64,000 nt of DNA from Planctomycetota bacterium (GTDB lineage: Bacteria; Planctomycetota; Phycisphaerae; Phycisphaerales; SM1A02): assembly GCA_022568135.1 (NCBI GenBank), contig JADFFQ010000004.1:1-64000 (forward strand). Direction: 5' to 3'. Positions 2,917 through 26,623 of this stretch are shown here, piece after piece. Positions within the stretch are counted from its first letter, which is position 1; every line of letters begins with the position of its first letter. The notes beneath the pieces were generated by a model. That model saw only the letters and a program-made list of their open reading frames with translations. It had not been told where the DNA came from and searched no databases. The translations under genes and the position numbers were made by a program.

Positions 2917-3028
2917 TCGCCTCACCGTTCGGTCCAAAGCCGGGGCACCGCAGCACCATTGCTCCGGACGTTGACGGCCGTACCATGCGCATCTAGCATC
3001 CGCCTCCCGTTCGATGTTGGAGCGCATT

Positions 3029-3784
3029 GTGCCGACCGCCGTTATCAGCGACATCCACGCCAACCTCGAGGCGCTCCAGGCGGTGCTCGATCACATCGAC
3101 ACCCAGAACATCGATCGCATCATCTGTCTGGGCGATATTCTCGGCTACGGCCCCAGCCCGGTGGAGTGCGTCGATCTGGTGGCCGAGCGCTGTGAATGGT
3201 CGTTGATGGGCAACCATGACTTCGGCGTGGTCTACGAGCCGACCAACTTCAACCTCGCCGCGGAGCAGGCCGCGTACTGGTCCAGAGAGCAGTTCGAAGC
3301 TCAACCGGGCAGCGACAAAAGCGCCAAACGTTGGGAGTTCCTCAGTCGGCTCCGCGTGCGCGTGAGCTTCGACAGCTTCTTGTGCGTTCACGGCACGCCC
3401 CGCCGGCCGATCAACGAGTATCTCTTCCCGGAGGACGCCCTGAACTCTCCCGTGAAGATGCAGCAGATCTTCGAGCTGATCGACCGGTACTGCCTGGTCG
3501 GCCACACCCATGTCCCCGGGGTGTTTACCGACGAGCCGGATTTTTATCCGCCGGACGATCTTGACGGGGAATACAAGCTTCGCGAGGATGAAAAAGCGAT
3601 CATCAACCCCGGCTCGGTGGGCCAACCGCGCGACCTCGACCCGCGAGCCAGCTACGCCGTCATTGACGACGATCGCGTCAGATTCATCCGCCTGGAGTAC
3701 GATATCGATGCGGTCGTGGCCAAGATCCGCAGCGTCCCGGAGCTTCTGGATTGGCTGGGTGAACGGCTCTACGAAGGCAGATAA
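3029..3784 (+). CDS. Calcineurin-like metallophosphoesterase (YfcE/MJ0936 type)
   Basis: A small cytoplasmic metal-dependent phosphoesterase. The metal-binding motifs appear in order: SDIHAN near the N-terminus, then LGDILGYGP, MGNHD, and near the C-terminus GHTHVPG followed by a NPGSVGQPRD segment typical of the single-domain phosphodiesterase subfamily. There is no signal peptide or membrane segment. An ATG exists at 3014. I prefer GTG at 3029 because GGAG lies six bases upstream and the protein then begins immediately before the first beta strand, as is usual in the family. The substrate (cyclic nucleotide, small phosphodiester) is unknown. It lies 50-60 bases upstream of yidC on the same strand, so cotranscription is possible. 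Confidence 0.88.
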   Translation: MPTAVISDIHANLEALQAVLDHIDTQNIDRIICLGDILGYGPSPVECVDLVAERCEWSLMGNHDFGVVYEPTNFNLAAEQAAYWSREQFEAQPGSDKSAKRWEFLSRLRVRVSFDSFLCVHGTPRRPINEYLFPEDALNSPVKMQQIFELIDRYCLVGHTHVPGVFTDEPDFYPPDDLDGEYKLREDEKAIINPGSVGQPRDLDPRASYAVIDDDRVRFIRLEYDIDAVVAKIRSVPELLDWLGERLYEGR

Positions 3785-3845
3785 CTCGCGGCCTGCCGAG
3801 TGGCGCGACCGCCCGGTGAGCCGATGATCCTCGGTGTCTTCCCGC

Positions 3846-7675: not shown

Positions 7676-8998
7676 TCATCGCCTCGGATTCGACGGCGGT
7701 CGGAACTGCCTTGTCTCTGTCGAGTCGGTGAGGGCCAGCGTCGAAGCGGCGCCGTTTGAGAGCACCTTGGCCACCTCATCGAAGTAGCCCGTGCCCACCT
7801 CCCGCTGGTGCCGAACTGCGCTATAGCCTACGCGCGCGTCGGCGAATTCCTCCTGCTGCAGCCGGGCATAGGCGGCCATACCGCTCTTCTTGTATTCACG
7901 GGCCAGCCGGAACATCGAATGATTCAGCGAATGGAACCCGGCCAGCGTCACGAATTGGAACTTGTACCCCATCGCACCCAGCTCACGTTGAAAGTGGGCG
8001 ATCGTGTCATCGTCTAGGTACTGTTTCCAATTGAACGATGGCGAGCAGTTGTAGGCCAGCAGCTTGTCCGGGAACTGGGCGTGGATGGCTTCGGCGAAGC
8101 GCCTGGCCTCAGCAAGATCGGGCGTCACCGTCTCGCACCACAGCAGATCAGCATACGGGGCACTGGCCAGGCTCCGGGCGATGGCAAAGTCCAGCCCGCC
8201 TCGAACATGAACATACCCCTCGACAGTGTGCGGCTCGTCGGTCACGAACGGGGCATCGGCGGCGTCTACGGCGCATGTGAGCAGCTTTGCGCTGTTGGCG
8301 TCGGTCCTGGCTATGAGCACCGTAGGCACTCCCAGCACATCGGCTGCGAGACGGGCTGCGACCAGTGTGCGGATGAATTGACTCGTCGGGATCAGGACCT
8401 TACCGCCGAGGTGTCCGCATTTCTTTGCCGATGACAGTTGGTCCTCAAAGTGCACCCCGGCCGCCCCGGCTTCGATCATCGCCTTGGTCAGTTCAAACGC
8501 ATTCAGCGGTCCGCCGAAGCCCGCCTCAGCGTCGGCGACGATGGGCGCGTACCAGTGGCGAGTCAGATGGCCCTCCGCCCGCTCGATCTGGTCTGCTCGC
8601 TGCAAAGCTTGGCTGATTCCCCTCACCGCTGTCGGCACGCTGTTCACCGGGTAGAGGCTCTGATCCGGATACATCTGCCCCGACAGGTTCTGATCGGCCG
8701 CGACTTGCCAGCCGCTCACGTAGATCGCCTGCAAGCCGGCTCGCACCTGCTGCATAGCCTGGTTGCCTGTCACCGCGCCCAGCGCAGCAATGTACGGTTC
8801 AGTCCGCAGCAGCTCCCAGAGCCGCCGGGCCCCCAGATCGGCCACCGTGTACTGGATCCGCACCGAACCCCGCAGACGCTCGACATCCTGTTCACCGTAC
8901 GGCCGAGCGATCCCCCGCCAGCGGTCCCAGTCGGCGCCGGGCTCGACGATTGAGCCGCGGTGATGATCGTTCGTGATCGAGCTGCGAATGAAGTTCAT
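7676..8998 (-). CDS. aceA: Isocitrate lyase
   Basis: Cleaves isocitrate to succinate and glyoxylate, the first glyoxylate-shunt reaction, in the cytoplasm. At 440 residues it has the length of bacterial isocitrate lyases. The signature KKCGHLGGK is at about 192-200, with the catalytic base Cys194. Other landmarks are YPDQSLYP, the metal-binding stretch [13 protein letters not shown], and the NCSPSFNW substrate motif. It lies 24 bases downstream of aceB on the same strand, so the two form an aceBA operon. The start ATG at 8998 follows a run of seven G then AAAAAGATC, an unusual poly-G ribosome-binding region. Presence of the pair implies growth on acetate or fatty acids, or a gluconeogenic need. 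Confidence 0.96.
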
Positions 8999-9022
8999 GA
9001 TCTTTTTCCCCCCCGCAATCCC

Positions 9023-10654
9023 TTATTCCTTGCTTGGTCCGGCGAGCCGATCCAGCTGCTCGTAGGCAGCGAGGGTCAAGAAGTTCTCACACGTCCGGGC
9101 CGTGCAAAGACGCACGAAGAGATCGCGGGCTCGAGTGGTGCGAGCTGCGTCGAGGCGAGCAGGCTCCCGCCCGTCCCGCAGCCGGGCCATTTCTTCGTCG
9201 AGCACATTGCCAAAGAGCGTTTCGGTAATCGTCCTGCCATCGTCCAAGGTCGATCCATGGCGAATCCACTGCCAGACCTGGGTGCGACATATCTCGGCGG
9301 TGGCCGCGTCCTCCATCAGGTGGTAAAGCGGCACACAGCCTTGCCCGCCCAGCCATGCCTCCAAGTACTGCACCCCGACCCGGACGTTGTGGCGAAGGCC
9401 CGCTTCGGTCCGGGTGCCCGTGGGCAGCCGACAGAGATCCTCCGCAGTCACCTGAACCTCCGCACGCGTACGCTGGATCTGATTGGGCTGGGGCATATGA
9501 GCGTCAAAGACCGCTCGGGCCAGCGGCACCAGCCCGGGATGCGCGACCCACGTCCCGTCGTGGCCATCGGCAACTTCCCGCAGCTTGTCGGTGCGAACCT
9601 TCTCCAGCGCTTCCTCGTTGGCGACCGGGTCATCCTTGATCGGCACCTGGGCCGCCATCCCCCCCATCGCATGAACCTGACGGCGGTGACAGATGCGAAT
9701 CAGCAGCTGCGCATACGCCCGCAGGAACGGCTGCTGCATCGTCACCTGCGACCGGTCCGGCAGCACGCGGTCGGGGTGATTCCGAAACGTCTTGATAAAG
9801 CTGAAGATGTAGTCCCAACGACCGCAGTTGAGCCCCGCTGAATGCTCACGCAGCTCCCAAAGAATCTCGTCCATCTCAAAGGCCGCGGGAAGCGTCTCGA
9901 TGAGCACCGTGGCCTTGATGGTCCGGCGAGGAATCCCCAGGGCCTCCTGGGCGTGCACGAAGATGTCATTCCACAGCCGCGCCTCGAGATGGCTCTCCAT
10001 CTTGGGCAGATAGAAATACGGGCCGCTGCCGCCGTCGATCAGTGCCCGGGCGTTATGAAAGAAGAACAGGCCGAAATCAAATATCCCCGCCGGTATGGGC
10101 TTCTCATCGACTCGGAAGTGTTTCTCGACCAGGTGCCAACCGCGCGGGCGAACCATCAACGTCGCCGTCTCGCCGTTGAGCTGGTAGTGCTTGCCAGCGT
10201 CGTTCACGAAGCGGATGGTCCCGGCCACGGCATCTCGCAGGTTGACTTGACCGGCCACAAGGTTGTCCCAGGTCGGGGACGTGGAGTCCTCGAAGTCGGC
10301 CATGAAGACATTTGCCCCGCTGTTCAGCGCGTTGATGATCATCTTGCGATCGACCGGGCCGGTAATCTCTACCCGGCGGTCGAGCAGATCATCCGGCAGC
10401 GATGCGACCGTCCAGTGGCCGGCTCGAATCGACGCGCTCTCGGCCGGAAAATCGGGGCGGTCGCCGGCATCAAAGCGCCTCTGCCGTTGCCGGCGCCGGG
10501 CCATGAGCTGCCCGACGCGATCACCGAAGCGCCGCGCGAGATCCGCCACGAACTCGACGGCCGGGGCTGTAAGTACCTCCTCGTAGCCGGGGCGCATCGG
10601 TCCGAGGATCTGCACGTCGGCCCAGGGCAGGGTGCTGCTTGGGGTTGGATTCAT
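9023..10654 (-). CDS. aceB: Malate synthase A
   Basis: Condenses glyoxylate with acetyl-CoA to malate, completing the glyoxylate shunt with the adjacent isocitrate lyase. At 543 residues it is the short A-type isoform (the G-type is near 720). The conserved metal/catalytic region reads MADFEDSTSPTWDN at about 118-131, followed by a TLMVRPRGWHLVEKH segment. Further on there are ATVLIETLPAAFEMDEIL, GLNCGRWDYIFSF, and near the end AWLGGQGCVPLYHLMEDAATAE with WIRH. The first gene of the aceBA operon; ATG start at 10654. An imperfect dyad lies about 60-80 bases upstream (10713-10731), a possible operator. Confidence 0.96.
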   Translation of the reverse strand: MNPTPSSTLPWADVQILGPMRPGYEEVLTAPAVEFVADLARRFGDRVGQLMARRRQRQRRFDAGDRPDFPAESASIRAGHWTVASLPDDLLDRRVEITGPVDRKMIINALNSGANVFMADFEDSTSPTWDNLVAGQVNLRDAVAGTIRFVNDAGKHYQLNGETATLMVRPRGWHLVEKHFRVDEKPIPAGIFDFGLFFFHNARALIDGGSGPYFYLPKMESHLEARLWNDIFVHAQEALGIPRRTIKATVLIETLPAAFEMDEILWELREHSAGLNCGRWDYIFSFIKTFRNHPDRVLPDRSQVTMQQPFLRAYAQLLIRICHRRQVHAMGGMAAQVPIKDDPVANEEALEKVRTDKLREVADGHDGTWVAHPGLVPLARAVFDAHMPQPNQIQRTRAEVQVTAEDLCRLPTGTRTEAGLRHNVRVGVQYLEAWLGGQGCVPLYHLMEDAATAEICRTQVWQWIRHGSTLDDGRTITETLFGNVLDEEMARLRDGREPARLDAARTTRARDLFVRLCTARTCENFLTLAAYEQLDRLAGPSKE

Positions 10655-10712
10655 TGGAATGTGCTCCGTCGCGGTCTGGTCATTGTGCCCGCAATTCGGA
10701 AGCTATCAATAT

Positions 10713-10731
10713 CTACTTGTGAGACAAGCAG
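10713..10731. promoter_or_regulatory. Imperfect dyad upstream of aceBA, candidate operator
   Basis: CTACTTGT-GAG-ACAAGCAG: arms of eight bases with one mismatch and a three-base spacer, 59-77 bases upstream of the aceB start in an AT-richer patch (ATCAATAT beside it). Position and symmetry suit a repressor or activator site for glyoxylate genes; no regulator gene is adjacent. Confidence 0.35.
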
Positions 10732-10920
10732 TTAGAGGATTCCGATAACGCCGCTCAGGCCGTGCAACCCCCCCATCCGCCACCGGCGCCGGTCGCAGCA
10801 GCGATTCGTCACTTGTCCTGGTCAATGCATGCCCAGCCGAATCTTGTCAACGTTCTGCGTCGGCAAGTGAAGGGGGCCCGTGTTCACGCAACAAACGCCG
10901 TTGCGTCCAACCTTCTTCAT

Positions 10921-14649: not shown

Positions 14650-17600
14650 ATGGGGACAATCACCACCGGCATCGGGCTGATCAGCGGCATTGACACCGCG
14701 ACCCTGATCGACAGTCTGATCGCTCTCGAAGCGCGCGGCAAGCTCGGGCTTCAGGCGCGGCTGGTGTCGTTGCAAGCGCAAAAGACCGCGCTGTTGGACA
14801 TCAACGCTCGCCTGCTCAATTTCAAGAACATCGCCCGGTCCTTCCGGCTGGATTCGATCTTCAAGTCCGCCCTGGCCAGCAGCAGCAACAGCGACATCCT
14901 CACCGCGACCGCGTCGGCGAGGTCGCTGCCGGGCACGTTCACGTTCATCGTCAAGCAACTGGTGGCCACCAGCCAGAAGCTCTCGGCAGGCTTTGCTGAC
15001 ACGGACACCACGCCGTTGGGCCTGACGTCGCTGAGCTTCGAGTTCGGCAAAGGAACGCTGTCAACCGACACCGATCTTGAGAACCTCAACGGCGGCGCCG
15101 GCGTCGCGCGAGGCAAAATCATCATCATCGACGGCATCGGTACGACCACCGTCGATCTGACCGATGTGACCTCGCTCAACGAAGTTCTCGACCGCATCAA
15201 CAGCTCCGGGGCCAACGTCACTGCCACCGTGGATGGTGATCATGTCGTGGTGACGGAGAACGACCTGGGTGCGTTGGAGATCAAAAACGCTATCGGCTAT
15301 ACGACGGCCACCGACCTTGGCATCGCAGCCACCGATGGTGGCGATGGGATAATCACCGGCACCGATATCAACACCATCAGCGGCTCGACCGCACTGCGGT
15401 CGCTCAACGACGGCAATGGGGTCATCATCCGCAACAACGTGCCGGACCTGCACATCAAGGCCCGCGACACCACCTCGGTCTTCGACATCGATCTCGGTCG
15501 AGTGGACGCGGCAATCGACGACACCACGCTGCTGGCGGATCTGAACAACGGCAGCGGGATCAAGATCAGTAACGATGCGCCGGACTTTACGATCGTCACC
15601 TCCGAGGGCGTCTCGGTGGACATCAACATCGGCCAGATCGTCGATTCCAACGACGATGTGACCGACGAAGCGGTGACGACCGTCGGCGAACTCAAGACCC
15701 GCATCACGTCGCAGCTGGCCGCGGCGGGTGTCACCGACATCGCCCTGGCAGTCACCACCGACAATCGGTTCACCTTGACGGAGACGACCCTGGGCGGTGG
15801 GGCCCTGCAGGTGATCGGTGCCGGCCCCAGCAACGACCAGACGGCCCAAGACCTCGGCATACTCGGGACCGACGGGGGCACGGGAGACACCGACGGCACG
15901 CAGGACGGCGTCATCACCGGCACCATCATCCCCAACACCGTTCAGACCACCGCCGCGCTAACCCTTCAGGACGTCATCGACCGGATCAACAACGCCTTGG
16001 ACACCGGCGGCGGCGCCAACGCCGGACGCATCGTCGCGTCCATTGCCACCGACGGCGTGAGCCTGTTGATCACCGATACCATCGGCGGAGGCGGCAATCT
16101 CATCATCGAGGGCTTCTCCACCGATCCCAACGAGCCCAACGCCGCCGCGGACCTTGGCATCTTCACCGGCTTGGCGGGCGTGGCTGCGTCCACCGTGGAC
16201 GGCAACCGGCTCATCGCCGGGTTGAACTCGGTGCTCGTGGGCAATCTCAACGGCGGCGCGGGCCTCAGCGGCAACACCACGCTGACCATTACGGATAAGG
16301 CCGCGGGAAACGACACCTTCACGATCGACGAGTTGGGGTCGCTGAACGACATCATCGATCAGATCAACAGCTCGCCCAACATCCAGGTCACCGCCAGCCT
16401 CAACTCCAAAGGCACGGGACTGCTCATCACCGACACCTCGGCGGGAGGTGGCAGTCTCACGATCGGCGGCAGCGCCGCCACTGAGCTGAAGATCAACGGC
16501 ACCACGACGCAGAACACCATCGAGGGCGCCAACCTCCAGCTTCGCTACGTCTCCGAAGCGAGCCTGCTGAGCGATCTGAACTACGGCCGAGGCGTAGGCA
16601 CCGGCGTGTTTCGGATCACCGACGGGTACGGAAACGTCGCCGACGTCAACATCGGCTCCGATTCGCTGACGCTCTTCGACATCATCCAGGAGATCAACTC
16701 ACGTGGGTTGGCCGTCAAGGCTCGGGTCAACGACAACGGCGACGGCCTTTTGCTCGAACACGATCCGACCAACGCTTCACCCGTGGAGACCGGCGAGCCG
16801 TTCGTGGCCATCAAGGTTGAGACGCTCAGCGGCACGACCGCGGCGGACCTCAATATCCTCGGCGAAGCGGACGCGGTGGGTGAGGATATCGAGGGGTCCT
16901 ACGAGCGGGTCGTGACACTCGACGTCTCTGATTCCTTGAGCGACGTGGTGGGGAAGATCAATGATGCAGGCATCCCCGTCAGCGCCTCGATTATCAACAT
17001 CGGCTCAGGCGCGACGCCGTTCCGCCTGAACTTCAGCTCGAAAATCACCGGTCGTCTCGGCGAGTTGATCATCGACAGTGGGGGCGTCGATTTGGGGCTG
17101 ACCACGCTCTCGGACGGGCGCGACGCCAAGGTCTTCTTCGGCTCCGACGACCCGTCCCAGGGCTTTCTGATCACCAGCTCATCGAACAGTATCAGCGACG
17201 TGGTGCCGGGGGTGACCATTGACCTCGTCTCGGCCAGCGATGATCCCGTGACCGTGACCGTCACCCGGGATACTCAGAAGATCGAGGACGCGGTCTTCCA
17301 GCTCGTGACCACGTTCAATGACGCGATCGGGCGGATCAACGAATACGACTTCTTCGATGTCGACTCCGAGCAGCGCGGCCCGTTGCTGGGCAACTCGACC
17401 ACGGCCCGTGTGCGCGGTGCGCTGTACCGTGTCGTGCAGGGGCCGGCCAGGGGCGTGGAAACGCAGTATCAGCGTCTCAGCCAGGTGGGGATCCGCGTTG
17501 GGGCCGAGGGTGTGCTGACCTTCGACAAAGACAAGTTCCGCGAGGCGTACGAGAACGACCCCGAGGCGGTCGAGAACCTCTTCGCCGCCTTCAAGGGGTC

Positions 17601-17946
17601 AACGACCACCGAGAAGGAGATCGCGGACGGCGTGACGGTCAACGTCATCGAGCAGGAGTTCACAGTTCTGGGCCTCGGTGATCTGTTCGATCAACTGCTC
17701 GACGGACTGACCAACTCCATTGACGGCACGGTGACGCTCGCCGATCAGGTTTTCCAAGACCAGATCGATCTCACGAACAAGCGCATCGAGGCCTTTGATG
17801 TGCGCCTGGAGGCGCGACGGGAGCGGCTTGAGCGGCAGTTTCTGGCCATGGAGAAGGCCCTGGCCCAGCTTCAGGCCCAGAACAACGCCCTGCTGTCGCT
17901 GGCCGGCAATCTGGCCCTCGCCCAAAACCTCTCCATCCGCCGATAG
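14650..17946 (+). CDS. fliD: Flagellar hook-associated protein 2 (filament cap) FliD, enlarged
   Basis: Caps the growing flagellar filament and assists flagellin folding outside the cell. The FliD_N domain is recognisable at about 5-110 (GIGLISGIDTATLIDSLI onward). FliD_C is at about 880-1095, with RDTQKIEDAVFQLVTTFNDA, a LFAAF segment, and a terminal coiled coil ending RRERLERQFLAMEKALAQLQ. Typical FliD is 450-700 residues; this one is 1098. The excess (about 135-800) consists of roughly five divergent modules of the flagellin hook-IN type, with the pattern 'LNGGxGv...I.D..G...sLnDvIDrINss..v.a.v...g..l.iTDt.GGg.L', often ending 'AADLGI'. These should form extra surface domains on the cap. 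fliS follows 65 bases downstream. Confidence 0.92.
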   Translation: MGTITTGIGLISGIDTATLIDSLIALEARGKLGLQARLVSLQAQKTALLDINARLLNFKNIARSFRLDSIFKSALASSSNSDILTATASARSLPGTFTFIVKQLVATSQKLSAGFADTDTTPLGLTSLSFEFGKGTLSTDTDLENLNGGAGVARGKIIIIDGIGTTTVDLTDVTSLNEVLDRINSSGANVTATVDGDHVVVTENDLGALEIKNAIGYTTATDLGIAATDGGDGIITGTDINTISGSTALRSLNDGNGVIIRNNVPDLHIKARDTTSVFDIDLGRVDAAIDDTTLLADLNNGSGIKISNDAPDFTIVTSEGVSVDINIGQIVDSNDDVTDEAVTTVGELKTRITSQLAAAGVTDIALAVTTDNRFTLTETTLGGGALQVIGAGPSNDQTAQDLGILGTDGGTGDTDGTQDGVITGTIIPNTVQTTAALTLQDVIDRINNALDTGGGANAGRIVASIATDGVSLLITDTIGGGGNLIIEGFSTDPNEPNAAADLGIFTGLAGVAASTVDGNRLIAGLNSVLVGNLNGGAGLSGNTTLTITDKAAGNDTFTIDELGSLNDIIDQINSSPNIQVTASLNSKGTGLLITDTSAGGGSLTIGGSAATELKINGTTTQNTIEGANLQLRYVSEASLLSDLNYGRGVGTGVFRITDGYGNVADVNIGSDSLTLFDIIQEINSRGLAVKARVNDNGDGLLLEHDPTNASPVETGEPFVAIKVETLSGTTAADLNILGEADAVGEDIEGSYERVVTLDVSDSLSDVVGKINDAGIPVSASIINIGSGATPFRLNFSSKITGRLGELIIDSGGVDLGLTTLSDGRDAKVFFGSDDPSQGFLITSSSNSISDVVPGVTIDLVSASDDPVTVTVTRDTQKIEDAVFQLVTTFNDAIGRINEYDFFDVDSEQRGPLLGNSTTARVRGALYRVVQGPARGVETQYQRLSQVGIRVGAEGVLTFDKDKFREAYENDPEAVENLFAAFKGSTTTEKEIADGVTVNVIEQEFTVLGLGDLFDQLLDGLTNSIDGTVTLADQVFQDQIDLTNKRIEAFDVRLEARRERLERQFLAMEKALAQLQAQNNALLSLAGNLALAQNLSIRR

Positions 17947-18011
17947 TTGTCTCCACGAAATCGCCGGGCAGACGCATCTGATGCAGCAACCGAGCCGATA
18001 CATCATGGACG

Positions 18012-18497
18012 ATGAGCTCATCGCAACCTAACCCCTACCTGCACACAAAGGTGATGACCGCCAGCACAGCTGAGCTTCGGCTGCTGCTGTTCGACGGCGC
18101 CCTGAAGTTCGCCGAGCAGGGCAAGGCCGCATTGGAGGCTGGCGACCACGAGGCGGCGTACGAGGGCATCAGCCGTTGCCAGGACATTCTCATCGAGCTA
18201 ATCAACAGCCTCGAGCCTCAGCATTCCCCGGAGCTTTGCCAGCAGCTTTCGTCCTTGTACACGTTCATGTATACGCGGTTGATTGCGGCGGTCGGCGAGC
18301 GCAGCCCGGCCATTGTCGAGGAGGTGCTCGGACTACTAAGGTACGAGCGAGAGACGTGGTCGATGCTGATTGAACGGTTGGCTGAGGAGAACGTCGCGGC
18401 CGGGGGTCTTGTGGACACCCCCCGAGCCCAGCCGCCACAGCCGGCCCATGCCAGCGGATCGTCTCTGATCGGCGGCTCGATCAGTGTGAAGGGGTGA
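18012..18497 (+). CDS. fliS: Flagellin export chaperone FliS
   Basis: A cytoplasmic helical-bundle chaperone that holds flagellin unfolded before export. It has 161 residues. The N-terminus has the family pattern NPYLHTKVMTASTAELRLLL followed by FDGALKFAEQG. Four helices run to about residue 128, and the last 30 residues are a Pro/Ala/Ser tail not seen in minimal FliS. The ATG at 18012 (ATGAGCTCATCG) is chosen because the upstream in-frame sequence is not protein-like. It directly follows fliD, the usual order. Confidence 0.88.
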   Translation: MSSSQPNPYLHTKVMTASTAELRLLLFDGALKFAEQGKAALEAGDHEAAYEGISRCQDILIELINSLEPQHSPELCQQLSSLYTFMYTRLIAAVGERSPAIVEEVLGLLRYERETWSMLIERLAEENVAAGGLVDTPRAQPPQPAHASGSSLIGGSISVKG

Positions 18498-18827: not shown

Positions 18828-19829
18828 ATGGCCAAAGATCAAATGATCGTCGTGGCCGGTGGAGGGGGGTTCATCGGAGGGCATCTCGTCGCCGACCTGC
18901 TTCGCCAAGGCTACACCAGCATCCGCTCGGTTGATATCAAGCCGTTCGCCCAGTGGCATCAGCGATTCGATGTGGTCGAGAACCTCCAGCTCGATCTCAA
19001 GGACAAGAGCAACTGCCTGGAGGCATGCGACGGTGCGGCCGAGGTGTATCAGCTCGCCGCCGACATGGGCGGGATGGGGTTCATCGAGGCCAACAAGGCC
19101 CTGTGCATGCTTTCGGTTCTGATCAACACGCACATGCTCATCGCGGCCAAAGACACGGGCGTGCAGCGCTTTTTCTATTCCTCGTCCGCCTGCGTCTACA
19201 ACCAGGAGAAGCAGACGAGCGAAGATGTCGTCGCCCTGAAAGAAGAGGACGCCTATCCCGCCGACGCGGAGGACGGCTACGGCTGGGAGAAAATCTTCTC
19301 CGAGCGGATGTGCCGGCATTTCCGAGAAGACTTCGGAATCGTTACCCGTATGGCTCGCTACCACAACGTCTACGGCCCGCACGGCACCTGGGAGGGCGGG
19401 CGCGAAAAGGCTCCGGCCGCCATTTGCCGCAAGGTGATCCAGGCCAAGGTCGCCGGCCGCGATGAGATCGAGATCTGGGGCGACGGCCGGCAGACCCGCA
19501 GCTTCATGTACATCGACGACTGCCTCAAAGGCACGGACATGATCATGCGCAGCGACGTCACCGAGCCGCTGAATCTGGGTTCCAACGAGTTGGTCACGAT
19601 CAATCAGCTTGTGGACATCGTCCAGGAGATCGCCGACATCAAGCTCAAGCGTCAATACAACCTCAGCGCCCCCAAGGGCGTCAACGGGCGTAATAGCGAT
19701 AACACGCAGATCAAGAAGTGCCTCGGCTGGGAGCCGAGCATTCGGTTGCGCGAGGGCATGGCCAAGACGTATGCCTGGATCTACGACGAATACATGGCCA
19801 AGTACGGCGCCAAGGCCCGGGCGGTGTGA
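18828..19829 (+). CDS. GDP-mannose 3,5-epimerase-like SDR
   Basis: An extended short-chain dehydrogenase/epimerase of 333 residues. It shows the Rossmann motif GGGGFIGGHL at 11-20, the ADMGGMGFI loop, catalytic SSSACVY and YxxxK (YGWEK). The stretch HNVYGPHGTWEGGREKAPAA and WGDGRQTRSFMYIDDC are diagnostic of the GDP-mannose 3,5-epimerase group rather than UDP-glucose 4-epimerases. The expected product is GDP-L-galactose or a related GDP-hexose feeding the downstream glycosyltransferase. ATG at 18828 follows GGAAGGAATGGGAA. First gene of a co-directional run to 26623. Confidence 0.88.
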   Translation: MAKDQMIVVAGGGGFIGGHLVADLLRQGYTSIRSVDIKPFAQWHQRFDVVENLQLDLKDKSNCLEACDGAAEVYQLAADMGGMGFIEANKALCMLSVLINTHMLIAAKDTGVQRFFYSSSACVYNQEKQTSEDVVALKEEDAYPADAEDGYGWEKIFSERMCRHFREDFGIVTRMARYHNVYGPHGTWEGGREKAPAAICRKVIQAKVAGRDEIEIWGDGRQTRSFMYIDDCLKGTDMIMRSDVTEPLNLGSNELVTINQLVDIVQEIADIKLKRQYNLSAPKGVNGRNSDNTQIKKCLGWEPSIRLREGMAKTYAWIYDEYMAKYGAKARAV

Positions 19830-19899
19830 GGTTGCCGGCGGCTGTTGCGGCCTCCATGACCAGCGACCGTGCATGCTGCGATAGAAGTGTCATCCGCCC

Positions 19900-21141
19900 G
19901 TGCCCAGCAACTCGACAGCCAAGACGATCTTGATTCTTAGCCAGGTCTACGTGCCGGACCCTGCCAGCGTAGGGCAGCACATGGCCGACGTAGCAACCGA
20001 GATGGCGCGGCGCGGGTATCGCGTCGTGGTGCTCGCCGCCAACCGCGGCTACAACGACCCGTCAATAAAATATCCGCCGAGCGAGGTTCTCGACGGCGTA
20101 GAGGTTCGCCGGATTCCGCTTTCGTCGTTCGGGAAGAGGTCGATTCCCATGCGACTGCTGGCGTCGGCGAGCTTCCTCATTCAATGCGTCCTGCGCGGCG
20201 TGTTCACGCGACGCCTGGCTTGCGTGCTGGTCAGCACCTCGCCGCCGATGTGCTCCGCCGCGGCGCTGATCATCGCGGCGATACGAGGCGCTCGCGTCAA
20301 GTACTGGGTGATGGACCTCAACCCAGATCAGATGATCGCGCTGGGGTGGATCAAGGCGTCATCACCCATTGTCAAACTGTTCGATTGGTTCAACCGAATA
20401 GTCCTGCGCCGCGCCTCGGACATCATCACCCTCGATCGCTTCATGGCCGAGCGCCTCCTGCGCAAACTCGATGTCAGCGAGAAGCTGCATGTCATGCCGC
20501 CGTGGCCTCACGATGATCACCTCGAGGTTGTCCACCACGAAGACAACCCATTCCGCAAGGAGCACAACCTTCAAGACAAGTTCGTCATCATGTACAGCGG
20601 CAACCACGGCTTGACGACACCGGTCACGACAGTGCTCCAGGCGGCATTACGTTTGCAGGACGACGAGCGACTGCTGTTCATGTTCATCGGCGGCGGGCAC
20701 GGGAAGAAGGAGGTCGAGCAGGTGATCGCCCAGCATGAGCCACGTAACATCGTCTCGCTGCCCTACCAGCCGTTGTCGCAGCTCAGATACTCGCTGTCAG
20801 CGGCCGACGTGCACGTGGTGACCATGGTGCAGGAGGCGGTCGGCATCGTTCACCCATGCAAGATATACGGAGCGATGGCCGTGGCCCGGCCGATCCTGCT
20901 GGTCGGGCCCGATCCGTCGCATGTGGCCGACCTCCTCCGCGAAGATCAGATCGGTTGGCGTGTCGACCACGGTGATGTAGAGTCGGCCGTCCGGACCATC
21001 CGCCTGATCACCCAGGCCGATCCTGACCAGCTGGCGGCGATGGGGCAGCGTGCACAGCGGATCGTCCAGCACCGATTGAGCAAGCGGAAGCTCTGCGCAG
21101 CGTTCGGCGAGGTCATGGAGCGCGGTCTTGACTCGGCCTGA
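19900..21141 (+). CDS. GT4-family glycosyltransferase (WcaI-like)
   Basis: A GT-B fold glycosyltransferase of 413 residues. The N-terminal Rossmann half starts KTILILSQVYVPDPASVGQH. A central acceptor region has SPPMCSAAALIIA and the YWVMDLNPDQ stretch typical of WcaI-like enzymes. The C-terminal donor half has YSGNHGLTTPV, FIGGGHGKKEVE and the E-x7-E-like motif EAVGIVHPCKIYGAMA. It is cytoplasmic or peripheral; an amphipathic patch at about 85-125 may bind membrane. Probably transfers a hexose to a lipid-linked glycan. The start is GTG at 19900. Confidence 0.85.
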   Translation: MPSNSTAKTILILSQVYVPDPASVGQHMADVATEMARRGYRVVVLAANRGYNDPSIKYPPSEVLDGVEVRRIPLSSFGKRSIPMRLLASASFLIQCVLRGVFTRRLACVLVSTSPPMCSAAALIIAAIRGARVKYWVMDLNPDQMIALGWIKASSPIVKLFDWFNRIVLRRASDIITLDRFMAERLLRKLDVSEKLHVMPPWPHDDHLEVVHHEDNPFRKEHNLQDKFVIMYSGNHGLTTPVTTVLQAALRLQDDERLLFMFIGGGHGKKEVEQVIAQHEPRNIVSLPYQPLSQLRYSLSAADVHVVTMVQEAVGIVHPCKIYGAMAVARPILLVGPDPSHVADLLREDQIGWRVDHGDVESAVRTIRLITQADPDQLAAMGQRAQRIVQHRLSKRKLCAAFGEVMERGLDSA

Positions 21142-21308
21142 ACGGGCCGGCGTCCAGCGTCGTATACAGAGTTACCCTCTGTGGACAAGGAGCCGGCGTG
21201 ACGCCTTGATCGGGCGCATCGCCTCGGCGCCACTAAGCGCGATAGGAGATCGGGTCGATCAGTTGGAGCAGGATCAGTCCTTGCGGGCAAGTGACGACCT
21301 CTGAAGTG

Positions 21309-21722
21309 ATGGCTGCATTTCGATTCAACCACCTCGGCGTGGCCGTGCCAGGCATCGACGATGCCGTCAGTTTCTACACTGAACTGTTCGGGTACAAGCT
21401 GCTGGCGGGTCCATTCGAAGATGCATCCCAGCAGGCAAAGGTCGCCTTCATCGGCAGCAATAGGGAAGGGGATGTCGTCATTGAATTGATCGAGCCGCTG
21501 AGTGAAAAGTCGCACGTTGCCGGGATCCTTGCCAAGGGCATCGGCGCGTATCACGTCTGCTACGAGGTGGACGACATCGAGCACACGCTTGACGAGGTGC
21601 GTGCGCGGGGCTGCGTGATCGTTCAAGAGCCGGTGCCGGCCGTAGCGTACCAAGGCCGGCGCATTGCCTGGTTCTACACGCCGGCCAGGCAGTTGATGGA
21701 GCTGGTTGAACGTGAGCGTTGA
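21309..21722 (+). CDS. VOC-family protein (methylmalonyl-CoA epimerase/glyoxalase-like)
   Basis: A vicinal-oxygen-chelate fold protein of about 137 residues with two paired beta-alpha-beta-beta-beta modules. Candidate metal ligands are His in FNHLGVAV, Glu in IELIEP, His in AYHVCYEV and Glu in MELVERER, the pattern of methylmalonyl-CoA epimerase. GTG at 21291 is an alternative start. The 3' end overlaps the fkbH gene by about 11 bases. In this context it may act on an acyl-ACP or acyl-CoA intermediate. The gene is thus better read as part of the FkbH-ACP module than as a general metabolic enzyme, which is inference. Confidence 0.8.
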   Translation: MAAFRFNHLGVAVPGIDDAVSFYTELFGYKLLAGPFEDASQQAKVAFIGSNREGDVVIELIEPLSEKSHVAGILAKGIGAYHVCYEVDDIEHTLDEVRARGCVIVQEPVPAVAYQGRRIAWFYTPARQLMELVERER

Positions 21723-23616
21723 AGCAGAGAATCACCGTCAGCAGATCGATGCGCTGATCGCCTCGGGCGACGCGTCAGGTGCGCACGCCTTGCTCGCGGA
21801 CCTGTGGCAAGCCGAGTCGAGCCCGGCGCTGGCCGGCTTCATCGTCTCGCGCTGGGAGAAGATGCGTGATCAACTTTCATGCTTGAAATGCAAGACCGCG
21901 ATCTTGCGCTCGTTCACCCTGGAGCCGCTCGTACCGATGGTGCGGGCCGGTGCGGCAGCCGCGGGAATCGATCTGGACGTACAGCTCGGCGATTTCAACG
22001 CCTACGCTCAGGAGATCATCGACCCGGGAAGCCGGCTGTACCGGTTCGACGCGAACCTCGTGATCCTGGCGGTGCAGACCCGGGATATCGCGCCCCGACT
22101 GTGGCAGGACTTCACCGACCTGACTCCCGCCGACGTTGACGACGCCGTGCAGCGCGTGACCAACAGCTTCGCGACATGGATCGAGACGCTACGCTCGCAC
22201 AGCCAGGCGCATCTGGTCATCCACTCCCTGGACCTGCCGCCGCGCTTCAATCAAGGCGTGCTTGATACTCAAGTTGAATCGAGTCAGGCTTGGGCAATCC
22301 AGCAGATCAACCAACAGCTTGCCACCCTCGCCCGGCAGCACACCGGCGTGTACGTGCTCGACTACGACGCGCTCATCGCACGGCACGGCCGGCTGAACTG
22401 GTATGATCCGCAGAAGTGGCTGACGGTGCGCCTGCCCATCGCCGCTGACAAGCTCATCCATCTGGCCGAGGAATGGCTGCGGTTTGTGTGCCCGCTGACC
22501 GGCAAGGCGGCCAAGTGCCTCGTGTGCGACCTCGACAACACGCTGTGGGGCGGCATTATCGGCGAAGATGGCATCGACGGCATACAGCTTGGCGCCGAAT
22601 ACCCCGGGGCCGCCTATCTCGAACTGCAGCGGGCCATCCTCGACCTGTATCAGCGCGGGATCATCCTCGCCATCTGCTCCAAGAACAACAATGACGATGC
22701 GATGGAGGTGCTCGAGAATCACCCGCACATGCTGCTGCGGCCACATCACTTCGCCGCGAAGCGGATTGATTGGAACGATAAGGTCCGGAACCTGCGTGCC
22801 ATCGCCGCCCAACTGAACGTCGGTATCGATGCGCTGGCGTTCATTGACGACAATCCGGTCGAGTGCAGGCTTGTTCGCTCACAGCTGCCTGAGATCACGG
22901 TGATTCAGCTTCCCGAGGATCCGATGTTGTCTGCGGACCTCCTTCGTCGGAGCCCGGTGTTCGAGCGTCTGAGCCGGTCGGATGAGGACAGGACTCGCGG
23001 GCAAATGTACGCCGAGCAGCGCCGGCGCGGCGAGCTGAAGCAGACGGTGGCCTCGCTGGAGGATTTCTACGAGTCGCTGGGGATGCAAGCCCACATCGCG
23101 CTGGTGACGCCGGCCACGCTGCCCCGGGTCGCGCAGCTCACTCAGAAGACCAACCAGTTCAACCTGACCACGCGGCGATACAGCGAGCAGCAGATCGCCG
23201 CCCTGGCTGCTGATCCCGACTGGAGGGTCTATTCGGTGCAAGTCGTCGATCGGTTCGGCGACAACGGCATCGTGGGTGTAGCCATCACACATCGCCGTGA
23301 CGACATCGTGGAGCTGGACACGTTCCTGCTCAGTTGCCGGGTGATCGGGCGCACGGTGGAGACGGCCATGCTAGCCACGATCGCCGAACACGCCAAAGAG
23401 GCCGGCGCCGCGCGGCTGGTCGGCTCGTTCATCCCCACGAGGAAGAACGCCCCGGCGGCGGACTTCTTCAAGATGCACGGGTTCGACTGTACATCTGAAG
23501 ATGTCCATGAATCAACATGGGGGCTCGACCTGACACGGAGCGCCGTGGAGCCGCCGCCCTGGATCGATCGAAAGGTTTCAGTCGAGGGAATGCCGCATGA
23601 CCGCGTCCGTGCTTGA
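21712..23616 (+). CDS. FkbH-like HAD-family protein (glyceryl-ACP loading type)
   Basis: A FkbH-family enzyme of about 634 residues. It has an N-terminal SGNH-like region (about 40-250), a HAD IIIC phosphatase core with DLDNTLWGGIIGEDG at about 273-287 and FIDDNPVECRLV, then a C-terminal GNAT-like domain (about 440-600) with TQKTNQFNLTTRRYSEQQI. Characterised FkbH proteins take 1,3-bisphosphoglycerate, remove phosphate and load a glyceryl unit onto an acyl carrier protein. The next gene is an ACP, overlapping by 20 bases, which supports this. GTG at 21712 has GGAG ten bases upstream; TTG at 21706 is possible. Confidence 0.88.
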   Translation: MSVEAENHRQQIDALIASGDASGAHALLADLWQAESSPALAGFIVSRWEKMRDQLSCLKCKTAILRSFTLEPLVPMVRAGAAAAGIDLDVQLGDFNAYAQEIIDPGSRLYRFDANLVILAVQTRDIAPRLWQDFTDLTPADVDDAVQRVTNSFATWIETLRSHSQAHLVIHSLDLPPRFNQGVLDTQVESSQAWAIQQINQQLATLARQHTGVYVLDYDALIARHGRLNWYDPQKWLTVRLPIAADKLIHLAEEWLRFVCPLTGKAAKCLVCDLDNTLWGGIIGEDGIDGIQLGAEYPGAAYLELQRAILDLYQRGIILAICSKNNNDDAMEVLENHPHMLLRPHHFAAKRIDWNDKVRNLRAIAAQLNVGIDALAFIDDNPVECRLVRSQLPEITVIQLPEDPMLSADLLRRSPVFERLSRSDEDRTRGQMYAEQRRRGELKQTVASLEDFYESLGMQAHIALVTPATLPRVAQLTQKTNQFNLTTRRYSEQQIAALAADPDWRVYSVQVVDRFGDNGIVGVAITHRRDDIVELDTFLLSCRVIGRTVETAMLATIAEHAKEAGAARLVGSFIPTRKNAPAADFFKMHGFDCTSEDVHESTWGLDLTRSAVEPPPWIDRKVSVEGMPHDRVRA

Positions 23617-23845
23617 CCGGGTGCGCCAGATCGTCGCCGACGTCTTCGGCCTTGCCCTGGATCAGATTGACGCTCGATCGTCGCCCGAATTGATTGAGGC
23701 GTGGGAATCGATAGCGCACCTCAACCTCGTGCTGAGTCTTGAGCAGGCGTTCGGCGTCTCGTTTACGCCTGATGAAATCGCGGAGCTTGTCAGCGTCGAG
23801 GCGATCGTGAACAAGGTGCACATGAAATTATCGCAGGCGGCGTGA
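23597..23845 (+). CDS. Acyl carrier protein
   Basis: An 82-residue four-helix carrier protein. The phosphopantetheine attachment Ser38 lies in WESIAHLNLVLSLEQAFGV, where the usual D-S is E-S. The helix I pattern VRQIVADVFGL and the helix III region FTPDEIAELVSVEAIVN fit the family. The start overlaps the end of fkbH by 20 bases, indicating translational coupling. It is not the fatty-acid ACP (no DSLD motif, acidic charge lower). It most likely carries the glyceryl or similar hydroxyacyl unit made by the preceding enzyme. Confidence 0.88.
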   Translation: MTASVLDRVRQIVADVFGLALDQIDARSSPELIEAWESIAHLNLVLSLEQAFGVSFTPDEIAELVSVEAIVNKVHMKLSQAA

Positions 23846-23889
23846 CCCTACCGGCCGACCGGCGTTGCAATTGAGCCAAGATAGTCCCA

Positions 23890-24972
23890 ATGCCGCAGCC
23901 CCAGATCACCATCCAAGAAGCGGGCCCGTCTGATCTCTCAGTCGTCGCGGACCTGCTGCGGCATCGCGACCAACGCGACCATGACATTCAATCGGTGCGA
24001 AGGTACCTCTTGGACCTCGACCCGGACAGGCTGCGGGCGTGGATTGCCATCGTTGACGGCCAGCCGGGGGGACTCACCGCCCTGTATATCCGCAATCTGT
24101 TATGGAATGACGGCGAGACAATCAAGGCCGGCTACTGGGCACACCTCTACGTGCAGCCGCAATACCGCAAGCTGATGCTGTACCCGCAACTGGTGTTCGC
24201 GATGCTCAATGGCGCCAAGTCCGCCGGTCTTGACCTGATCTATACCGGCACGCGGCGCCGAAAGGTCGCGGAAGCGCACGTCAAGCTGGGGTTTCATCGC
24301 GTTGGCAGGCTGCCGGTACTGATCAAGCCATTGAGTCCTGCACGCTTGATCAGCAAACATAAGGATTGGCCGGGTGCCACGAGACTCTTGGCGGCGCCTA
24401 TTGACTCTCTGTACCGTGGATACCTGGCGGCGCGTCGGCCGGGTTGTCCTGCAAATCTGTCGGCCGAAGAGCTGAAGCTGTCATCCGGGGACGTTGAGAC
24501 GCTCGTCCAGATGGCGAACGCTCGCGGGAAGGATCGAATCAGCCAGCGCTGGACGGCCGATGACCTTCGCCGACGATTTGCAGGCACCATCGAGGGCGGA
24601 CCGTACTCGGTGCTCGTCGCGTGGTCCGCCGGGGCGCTGACCGCGGCCCTCATCTTCCGCCTCGCCGAGCGCGGCAACGGCATCCGGGTGAGTGTGATCA
24701 TGGACGTGGTATGCTCGCCATCTGCGGCATCGGCAGCGCGTTGTCTTCTCGGTGAGGCCGAGCGGCGAGCTGACCATGATCACTGTGAGGCGATGCTCTA
24801 CTTGGAAGGGGCAGGCCCAACGATGGGCGAACTCGTTGCCAAACTCGGCTACCGAAACTCGCCCGAGGCCTACGACATTCTAGTCTGGCCTAAGGAGAAA
24901 GTGCCGACAGGATCAGCGGCGGCGGAGATATCGCGTTGGCGCTTCGCCTTTGCCGATCACGACGCGTTCTAG
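23890..24972 (+). CDS. Tandem GNAT-family acyltransferase
   Basis: A 360-residue protein with an N-terminal GNAT domain (about 5-150; acyl-donor-loop-like region YVQPQYRKLMLYPQLV, then TGTRRRKVAEAHVKLGFHRVG) and a more divergent C-terminal GNAT-like half (about 190-340; LVAWSAGALTAALIFRL, MGELVAKLGYRN). No signal or TM. Following fkbH and the ACP gene by 44 bases, it is a candidate to transfer the ACP-bound acyl group to a sugar or amino-sugar precursor. The substrate is not shown by sequence. Confidence 0.75.
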   Translation: MPQPQITIQEAGPSDLSVVADLLRHRDQRDHDIQSVRRYLLDLDPDRLRAWIAIVDGQPGGLTALYIRNLLWNDGETIKAGYWAHLYVQPQYRKLMLYPQLVFAMLNGAKSAGLDLIYTGTRRRKVAEAHVKLGFHRVGRLPVLIKPLSPARLISKHKDWPGATRLLAAPIDSLYRGYLAARRPGCPANLSAEELKLSSGDVETLVQMANARGKDRISQRWTADDLRRRFAGTIEGGPYSVLVAWSAGALTAALIFRLAERGNGIRVSVIMDVVCSPSAASAARCLLGEAERRADHDHCEAMLYLEGAGPTMGELVAKLGYRNSPEAYDILVWPKEKVPTGSAAAEISRWRFAFADHDAF

Positions 24973-25018
24973 CCCAGCAGCCCGTGGGAAGCATAGTTGA
25001 CGGACCGCCGGCCTGATC

Positions 25019-25900
25019 ATGACCCGTGCGATGAACACAACCCAGCCGATCATCAATGCTCTTTCATTTGATATCGAGGATTGGTTTCACATGGTGGGCA
25101 TCGATGCTGTTGGTGATCCCAAGATTTGGCCAACGCTGGAATCCATCGTGGAGCGCCACACTGAGTGGATCGTGCAAACCGTGACCGAGGCCGATGTCAA
25201 AGCCACGTTCTTCGTCTTGGGCTGGATCGCCGAACGCTATCCGCAGCTCGTGAGAATGATCGCTGAGCACGGGCACGAGCTGGGCACACACTCCTACTGG
25301 CATCGCAAGGTCTACGATCTCACACCCCAGCAGTTCCACCAGGACACGAAGCGGTCGATCGACATGATTGAATCGGCCGGCGGGCGGAAGGTTCTGGGCT
25401 ATCGCGCGCCGTCGTTCTCCATCACGCCCGGCACGGAATGGGCATTCGACGAGCTGCATGAGCTTGGCCTGCGCTATGATGCGAGCCTGTTTCCCACCCG
25501 CCGTGGCCATGGCGGGTACCCTTGCCCCGCCCAAGCCCATCTGTTCACCGCGACGCCTTCCGGGCGACCCCTGCCCGAGCTGCCAATGAGTGTGATGCGA
25601 ATCGGCCCCTTCCGCCTGCCCTTTTCCGGCGGCGGATACTTGCGCCTCCTACCACAATGGCTTATTCGCAGGGGCTTTGACCAGCTCAACGGCAACGGGA
25701 TCCCGGCGGTCGTCTACCTGCATCCGCGTGACTTTGACCCGAACTCTCCTCGCGTGCCCATGCCCCCGCATCGGCGGTTCACGTCGTACGTGGGACTCCG
25801 ATCCACAAAGATCAAGCTCAAGATGCTCTTGCAACGATACCGCTTCGACACCTGCGCCAGAGTATTGGGCATCGACTCTAGCCGGACGGCCCAGGAATGA
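25019..25900 (+). CDS. Polysaccharide deacetylase (NodB fold, DUF3473 type)
   Basis: A carbohydrate esterase family 4-like enzyme of 293 residues. Catalytic/metal motifs are SFDIEDWFH near residue 16, THSYWHR (His-x3-His metal pair), and YRAPSFSITP. A C-terminal extension with YLHPRDFDP and a Pro-Arg segment RVPMPPHRRFTSY matches the subgroup found in exopolysaccharide/exosortase clusters. No signal peptide is seen, so it may act on a lipid-linked intermediate on the cytoplasmic side or be exported otherwise. An alternative start is ATG at 25034. Confidence 0.88.
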   Translation: MTRAMNTTQPIINALSFDIEDWFHMVGIDAVGDPKIWPTLESIVERHTEWIVQTVTEADVKATFFVLGWIAERYPQLVRMIAEHGHELGTHSYWHRKVYDLTPQQFHQDTKRSIDMIESAGGRKVLGYRAPSFSITPGTEWAFDELHELGLRYDASLFPTRRGHGGYPCPAQAHLFTATPSGRPLPELPMSVMRIGPFRLPFSGGGYLRLLPQWLIRRGFDQLNGNGIPAVVYLHPRDFDPNSPRVPMPPHRRFTSYVGLRSTKIKLKMLLQRYRFDTCARVLGIDSSRTAQE

Positions 25901-26032
25901 CGCACGCACCACATTCGCCACATGCCTTCGGCCGACGCCCGTTTCCCCTGCGATATCAAATAGCCGGCGACCGATCTCCAGTCGATGGCGCGACGGCCGG
26001 CCCAACACTTCCCCCTCAAAGGGAACGACTCG

Positions 26033-26623
26033 ATGCGCCCTGAAGATTCGCGATCGCCCGACACAGCCCCCGGCCCTGAACCTCCAATGCAAATGCGGCC
26101 CCAGCCGAGCACCTGGTCATTCCAGGAGAAGCTCGGACGCGCGATCTGGATGCTACTGGGCAGACCCATCTTCCGCATCAGCTTCCACAATTGGCATCGC
26201 CTCCGCAGCGCGTTGCTGCGGCTCTTCGGCGCCAGGATCGGCAAGGGTGTGTCGATTCGACCGACGGTCAAGATCGAGATCCCATGGCTGCTCGACATCG
26301 ACGACGGGGCGACCATCGGCGATTACGCGATTCTCTACAATCTCGGCAAGATCAAGATCGGCAAGCGGTCGATCATCAGCCAGTACGCCCACTTGTGTGC
26401 GGGCACGCATGACTACACGGTGTCCTCCTTCCCGCTGATCCGTGCTCCAATCACCATCGGCGACGATGTGTGGATCGGAGCCGACGCCTTCGTCGGGCCG
26501 GGCGTGCATGTCGGATCGCTCAGCGTGTTGGGCGCTCGATCCAGCGCGTACAAGGATCTGCCCCAAAAGCGGGTCTTCGTCGGCAACCCCGCCAGACCCA
26601 TCAAGGACCGCGTGCTTCGATGA
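26033..26623 (+). CDS. WcaF-like left-handed beta-helix acetyltransferase
   Basis: An acyltransferase of about 196 residues with hexapeptide repeats: IGKGVSIRPTVKIEIPWLLD, IGDYAILYNLGKIKIGKRSI and ITIGDDVWIGADAFVGPGVHVG. The His pair context LCAGTHDYT is the catalytic loop of the colanic-acid acetyltransferase WcaF group. The C-terminus VFVGNPARPIKDR is typical. ATG at 26033 has AAAGGGAA eight bases upstream; an in-frame ATG at 25985 is less likely. Last gene of the polysaccharide run; it would O-acetylate the glycan. Confidence 0.85.
   Translation: MRPEDSRSPDTAPGPEPPMQMRPQPSTWSFQEKLGRAIWMLLGRPIFRISFHNWHRLRSALLRLFGARIGKGVSIRPTVKIEIPWLLDIDDGATIGDYAILYNLGKIKIGKRSIISQYAHLCAGTHDYTVSSFPLIRAPITIGDDVWIGADAFVGPGVHVGSLSVLGARSSAYKDLPQKRVFVGNPARPIKDRVLR

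Follow-up and report, generated by a model that had tools for sequence, protein, structure and literature searches.

In the Nod factor system (NodB/NodA/NodF), deacetylation of N-acetylglucosamine (GlcNAc) is followed by N-acylation from an acylated acyl carrier protein (acyl-ACP). In the Caulobacter crescentus holdfast, the deacetylase HfsH and the tandem GNAT protein HfsK act on a surface polysaccharide (PMC5362036; this and the other papers are cited here from excerpts), and in Hirschia baltica HfsH is required and deletion of hfsK has no effect (PMC8449245). In the Pgl system of Neisseria, exchange between PglB (acetyl) and PglB2 (glyceramido) switches the N-acyl group of the lipid-linked first sugar (PMC11130364). 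Furthermore, FkbH-like enzymes form glyceryl-ACP in tetronate pathways (PMC7489565). Here we describe a locus in a 64,000-nucleotide stretch of a Planctomycetota genome (contig JADFFQ010000004.1, called the window below), in which genes for a VOC protein, an FkbH enzyme, an ACP and a tandem GNAT protein lie between those of a glycosyltransferase and a polysaccharide deacetylase, an arrangement whose coordinates and families in the original prediction proved right.

We propose, with a probability of roughly 0.6, that the product of this locus is a surface-glycan unit, an acylated amino sugar, made by deacetylation and subsequent re-acylation, the latter by an exchangeable cassette. The starting points are the gene content of the cassette, its co-occurrence, the exclusivity of its variants, their swap at one site and the predicted fold of its transferase; from these we infer the chemical steps and their order, the acceptor and the identity of the sugar. 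That a glycan receives an acyl decoration by way of a carrier protein had already been suggested in the original prediction, and comparison among genomes supports it. To this we add that the transferase is likely the tandem GNAT protein, named GNAT2 in the window and its relatives, and the acceptor likely an amine freed by the deacetylase.

GNAT2 is found together with an ACP and one of two loaders. By profile search, GNAT2 is present in eight of 201 genomes of the order and FkbH, above its cut-off, in 22; in seven of the eight GNAT2 genomes the two share a contig and are no more than about 4 kb apart (Fisher p 5e-7, without correction for kinship). Among contigs of 84,980 species, a scan recovered 10 GNAT2 loci, every one planctomycete and three of them already found before, and the total set consists of 15 distinct loci, all from Planctomycetota, whose gene content was determined by tblastn. 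Across the phylum, the GNAT2 profile matches 27 of 392 genomes; three are the known strong ones and the rest have E-values of 7e-12 to 1e-3, mostly over one half only. FkbH and ACP genes lie beside GNAT2 in 10 of the 15 loci (window, L033, L034, L036-L039, L053, L058 and L060), and the other five (L035, L056, L057, L059 from Lacipirellula limnantheis and L061 from Aeoliella straminimaris) carry an AMP-binding ligase, a FabG-like short-chain dehydrogenase/reductase (SDR) and a different ACP, in which VDSLGLV is invariant (5/5). In L035 the ligase and SDR were named by Pfam, and the second ACP, having no Pfam or NCBIfam match, was called by motif and place. None of the 15 loci has both loaders, and none has a sugar formyltransferase. 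The co-occurrence survey proposed earlier as a check thus agrees with a linked FkbH-ACP-GNAT2 unit.

Some arrangements of the loaders lie outside this set. The AMP-ligase-SDR-ACP triad occurs without GNAT2 in L117, L118 and L119; in the latter two it adjoins a hexapeptide transferase (25-27% identical to WcaF), suggesting that the loader, too, is mobile and joins different transferases. FkbH adjoins VOC and a 404-residue GNAT protein at 8070-11800 of L046; this protein was considered as a GNAT2 relative and dropped, as there is no profile link (hhalign probability 2). In L033, the gene of a 740-residue sulfatase-like protein (8669-10891) with a PEP-CTERM-like tail, judged by eye, separates ACP from GNAT2 within the cassette, and a NodU/carbamoyltransferase-family gene (2660-4462) lies near the AMP-ligase type locus L035.

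GNAT2 alone reaches no curated cut-off: Acetyltransf_1 is matched by seven of eight family members (best 8.2e-9) and Acetyltransf_6 by just two. Twenty residues are invariant over 15 rows (one row cut by a contig end), and DHDAF is the C-terminus of all 14 complete copies. An AlphaFold model (pTM 0.89) contains two GNAT folds in tandem, and its top solved structures are all eukaryotic N-myristoyltransferases (NMT; Foldseek E 2.6e-16). In VIA-align, the model superposes on NMT with Z 27.2 and a root-mean-square deviation of 3.3 over 311 residues at 15% identity; the rows displayed were all NMT, and the fact that FemX is not among them carries no meaning. Residues 3-358 of the model align onto 153-496 of NMT1 with the C-termini superposed. 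According to the excerpted account, residue 496 is the C-terminal Gln of NMT, whose carboxylate is the catalytic base (PMC7048800). Because the conserved DHDAF end lies on this residue in the model, the C-terminus of GNAT2 may be catalytic as well. A common fold is no demonstration of common chemistry, and the Pfam NMT profile is not among the nine families matched by the eight members. Membership in the XrtA-associated FemAB proteins was also considered and rejected, since no FemAB family appeared in an NCBIfam scan of 15 members.

The company of ACP and loader genes suggests that the donor of GNAT2 would be an ACP thioester rather than CoA. GNAT2 might instead be an ordinary acetyl-CoA N-acetyltransferase, with FkbH-ACP serving another acceptor, for example in glycan O-acylation by an enzyme encoded outside the block. 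This would fit the weak sequence similarity of GNAT2 to aminoglycoside acetyltransferases and two other loci of the order, where FkbH-ACP adjoins an MBOAT O-acyltransferase (L041, 7198-11456, with a methyltransferase and a sub-threshold GDSL match nearby; L044, 5539-9751, with VOC), likely an O-acyl version of the arrangement. However, ACP and a loader lie beside GNAT2 in 15 of 15 loci, the loaders are of two unrelated kinds, and no MBOAT is found among the eight window genes; we regard the explanation as quite improbable.

The acyl group would be glyceryl. DLDNT (the HAD DxDxT core), SKNN and SCRVIGR of FkbH are kept in 10 of 10 loci, and a solved relative is BF1531 (3slr); the Cys before SKNN, considered as the catalytic residue, was dropped because it is Ala in L033. 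From its family, the window FkbH is predicted to load glyceryl from 1,3-bisphosphoglycerate onto the ACP, whose phosphopantetheine Ser column (W.S..H.N) is present in nine of nine aligned copies, the L060 copy being outside the alignment. Of the glyceryl or lactyl unit foreseen earlier, the former is thus partly supported and nothing specific points to the latter. In its classical role (PMC7489565), FkbH with VOC and ACP would make an extender or starter unit, here for a small polyketide or lipid and beside the glycan genes by chance. As stated in the original prediction, there are no polyketide genes: neither a polyketide synthase nor a dehydrogenase pair nor a FabH-like enzyme is encoded among the eight of the locus, and the same family 4 glycosyltransferase (GT4) adjoins the block in all 10 FkbH loci. 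This explanation, already disfavoured, has very little probability left.

That the group is attached to nitrogen is indicated by an exchange of the cassette. A close deacetylase (at least 54% identity, full length) is far commoner than GNAT2, being present in 47 of the 201 genomes; one close copy (L099, G018:C80:1549-2394) carries a single in-frame TAG. Sixteen deacetylase stretches without GNAT2 were examined, from 15 hand-picked genomes of the 39 GNAT2-less ones and from a second contig of G069. In 11 of them a formyltransferase occupies the slot beside the deacetylase, and the 10 of these that were scanned are all Formyl_trans_N; FkbH, GNAT2 and AMP-ligase are found in none of the 16. Especially, loci of the genus g31 share the order GME (GDP-mannose 3,5-epimerase-like), a gene of unknown function, GT4, [slot], deacetylase, GT2, WcaF, GT and sulfotransferase (GT2 named by Pfam, GT and sulfotransferase by eye), in which the slot holds FkbH-ACP-GNAT2 in G001, G012 and G062 and a formyltransferase in G007 and G017; L060 groups with the FkbH type in gene order. 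In family f1, the window and G135 (L122) have the same outer flanks, fliD-fliS and cysS; in G135 these enclose a formyltransferase and a different GT4, together with GMD/Fcl-type genes. Since formyltransferase replaces FkbH-ACP-GNAT2 in the slot, N-acylation of a sugar is indicated.

The GT4 follows the cassette. Among the five g31 loci, GT4 proteins share 74-81% identity inside the FkbH type and 76% inside the formyl type, but 55-59% from one type to the other, whereas GME is 88-95% and WcaF 71-80% identical throughout; with L060 included, the six loci give 74-89% for GT4 within the FkbH type, and 88-98% and 71-83% for GME and WcaF throughout. On a GT4 tree of 25 rows, cassette labels need four changes (shuffled mean 11.1; 0/200 as low). 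On a deacetylase tree of 28 rows, the FkbH label needs seven, at chance level (173/500 shuffles as low). As the GT4 subclade follows the cassette type, this enzyme would have to recognise the N-acyl group. A deeper GT4 split follows the sugar-nucleotide genes: with the long-branch row L123 left out, one clade has GME in 14 of its 17 stretches, the other in none of seven. The window GME, related in sequence to the plant enzyme, is predicted to supply GDP-L-galactose.

Gene content suggests that the adjacent deacetylase frees an amine and that this amine is the likely acceptor. In the deacetylase, the catalytic motifs FDIEDWFH, H...H and RAP are invariant in 28 of 28 rows, and the window copy has no evident signal peptide by eye. 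It falls short of the equivalog of the XrtA system, and an exosortase-linked exopolysaccharide locus is not indicated, the one exosortase match of the genome lying on another contig (C75); its match to NodB (TIGR04243) is weak (2.7e-11, 43.3 bits against a cut-off of 240). No DegT-type aminotransferase was found in the examined stretches of 19 genomes, the nearest being about 71 kb away. WecA-like initiating enzymes are encoded within the L053, L059 and L061 stretches and indicate a GlcNAc-primed lipid-linked precursor. Together, these enzymes, the lack of a nearby DegT gene and the intact deacetylase motifs without a signal peptide argue for a sequence of deacetylation, re-acylation from the ACP and extension.

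Several observations weigh against this sequence. Nucleotide sugars are the substrates of the sugar formyltransferases known so far, so the level of acylation may differ from the lipid-linked precursor. DegT aminotransferases are encoded elsewhere in 19 of 19 genomes, and five of the 16 deacetylase stretches (L120, L121, L124, L132 and L134) have none of the three cassettes. In G069, GNAT2-FkbH-ACP has no adjoining deacetylase, which lies on another contig; NMT itself uses CoA; half of the FkbH loci have no VOC. On the deacetylase tree, the formyl label is clustered (four changes, 1/500 shuffles as low) and all labels together need nine changes (14.3 when shuffled, 0/200 as low). Finally, the rule that this GT4 clade implies GME failed in three of 17 rows (G069, G197 and Lacipirellula limnantheis), where GME is nowhere in the genome, so that L-galactose is unsure as the donor sugar.

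The use of nucleotide sugars by known N-formyltransferases and GNAT sugar N-acyltransferases, the distant DegT genes and the stretches without a re-acylation gene would all suit another order of events, in which the same cassette acylates a nucleotide-linked amino sugar made by a distant aminotransferase and the deacetylase acts later and independently on the polymer. We hold this to be rather unlikely: aminotransferases are missing from the examined stretches, the window deacetylase has no signal peptide visible by eye, and the deacetylase accompanies GNAT2 in 12 of 15 stretches (two of the others are short contigs, and the third genome has a deacetylase elsewhere) and the formyltransferase in 11 of 11, stretches that were chosen for having it.

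In the preferred pathway of deacetylation and re-acylation, a lipid-linked precursor in the cytoplasm would lose the acetyl group of a GlcNAc-type residue through the deacetylase. FkbH would take the C3 unit from 1,3-bisphosphoglycerate, dephosphorylate it and put glyceryl on the ACP; its transfer from there to the free amine by GNAT2 would yield N-glyceryl-hexosamine. VOC, if present, would invert the alpha-carbon of the glyceryl thioester. GT4 would then attach the next sugar, possibly L-galactose by way of GME, to the N-acylated residue, and the WcaF-like enzyme would O-acetylate. FkbH-ACP-GNAT2 with its GT4 would be exchangeable for AMP-ligase-SDR-ACP-GNAT2 (presumably hydroxyacyl) or for a formyltransferase (formyl).

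The VOC protein was counted in the original prediction as part of the module; FkbH-ACP-GNAT2 stands as a unit, and VOC is not an obligate part. It is present in five of 10 FkbH loci, in none of the five AMP-ligase loci and in none of the 16 deacetylase-only stretches; G157, G001 and G012 have none at E 1e-10, and G062 and the L060 genome have just about 35% identical relatives elsewhere, and an obligatory partnership was therefore rejected. Its fold is of the glyoxalase I/methylmalonyl-CoA epimerase type (3hdp/1jc4), and H14, E65, H88 and E137, which we take to be ligand residues, are invariant in five of five. Glyoxalase I and methylmalonyl-CoA epimerase have acyl thioesters or their precursors as substrates, on whose alpha-carbon they act, and a putative, optional alpha-epimerase of glyceryl-ACP, setting the acyl stereochemistry, would fit this chemistry; confidence in the assignment is low.

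The eight genes of the locus (18828-26623; Table 1) lie in a genome of 3.35 Mb in 87 contigs. The VOC and FkbH genes overlap by 17 bp and FkbH and ACP by 20 bp, in line with the overlaps noted earlier; gaps of 44 bp between ACP and GNAT2 and of 46, 84 and 72 bp further downstream follow, so a single transcript is plausible. The open frame of VOC opens with GTG at 21291, and its ATG was taken as the start. The G+C content of the block is 0.59-0.63, like that of the window (0.626). The outer neighbours are fliD/fliS on one side and cysS, coaE, rho and tuf on the other (FliS by Pfam, the rest by eye).

Table 1. Genes of the glycan locus, with positions in the window and the matches on which their names are based.
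Feature	Position	Strand	Evidence
GDP-mannose 3,5-epimerase-like (GME)	18828..19829	+	PDB 2c59/2c54/8sg0 E ~1e-92 (2c59 E 4.8e-93); Epimerase PF01370 136 bits
WcaI-family GT4 glycosyltransferase	19900..21141	+	NF007640 163 bits, under cut-off 276
VOC	21309..21722	+	Glyoxalase_4 PF13669 73.9 bits (cut-off 27)
FkbH	21706..23616	+	TIGR01686 317.7 bits (cut-off 146.65); FkbH_N 49.7 (27)
Stand-alone acyl carrier protein (ACP)	23597..23845	+	PP-binding PF00550 31.7 bits (cut-off 20.8)
GNAT2, tandem GNAT	23890..24972	+	predicted structure, pLDDT 92.6; NMT Z ~27; C-terminal DHDAF
XrtA-type (DUF3473) polysaccharide deacetylase	25019..25900	+	TIGR03006 268.2 bits, under cut-off 276.2; Polysacc_deac_1 and DUF3473 above cut-off
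WcaF-like hexapeptide O-acetyltransferase	25985..26623	+	NF007797 198.7 bits (cut-off 192)

In two genomes of the family, fliD and fliS lie directly upstream of the glycan locus (window 14650-18497; L122 14286-17591). Flagellin glycosylation was considered from this adjacency and is not favoured as the role of the locus: FliS matches occur in only these two of 35 stretches, and the adjacency looks like local synteny.

Taken more widely, the loci may represent a modular glycan N-acylation of Planctomycetota, with an NMT-fold transferase using a C-terminal carboxylate base, interchangeable acyl-ACP loaders (FkbH or AMP-ligase/SDR), exchange against formyltransferases and an acyl-reading GT. N-glyceryl sugars would then, for the first time, be reached through a carrier protein; we give this tentative generalisation somewhat less than even odds. 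If the reading is true, FkbH-ACP chemistry extends from polyketides to surface sugars, and the outer-coat glycan chemistry of planctomycetes may be predictable from genomes. Between matched relatives, of the same genus and with the same flanks, a single N-acyl group should be the main difference in the glycans, and the idea of deacetylation and re-acylation becomes directly testable through such relatives. Among listings of the open-licence PMC literature, we found no paper joining FkbH-ACP to a glycan, nor one joining deacetylase, exosortase and FemAB, nor the planctomycete combination.

The view in the original prediction that no equivalent is described was too strong, as HfsH/HfsK (PMC5362036) and the glyceramido sugar of PglB2 (PMC11130364) are close in logic, at least in the excerpts. 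Like the window, Caulobacter combines a deacetylase with a two-domain GNAT. However, the acyl donor of HfsK is given as unknown in the excerpted account and hfsK is not part of the hfs locus (PMC8449245), whereas transferase, carrier and loader share one block in the window, and the cassette thus names a likely donor for a tandem-GNAT glycan modifier, a point left open for HfsK. HfsK was modelled on FemX, and the best solved fold for GNAT2 is NMT. Eukaryotic NMT has the same tandem fold with superposed C-termini, at 10-15% identity, but its substrates are acyl-CoA and a peptide. The Nod factor system follows the same logic of deacetylation and acyl-ACP transfer, with a fatty acyl group and another transferase family. 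Tetronate and methoxymalonate pathways use FkbH with a stand-alone ACP as in the window (PMC7489565); there the unit goes into polyketides, whereas a glycan amine is its predicted destination here. The switch between PglB and PglB2 resembles the cassette swap, but PglB2 is an ATP grasp/phosphoglycosyltransferase (PMC11130364) and neither domain occurs in the eight window proteins, where FkbH, ACP and GNAT are found instead.

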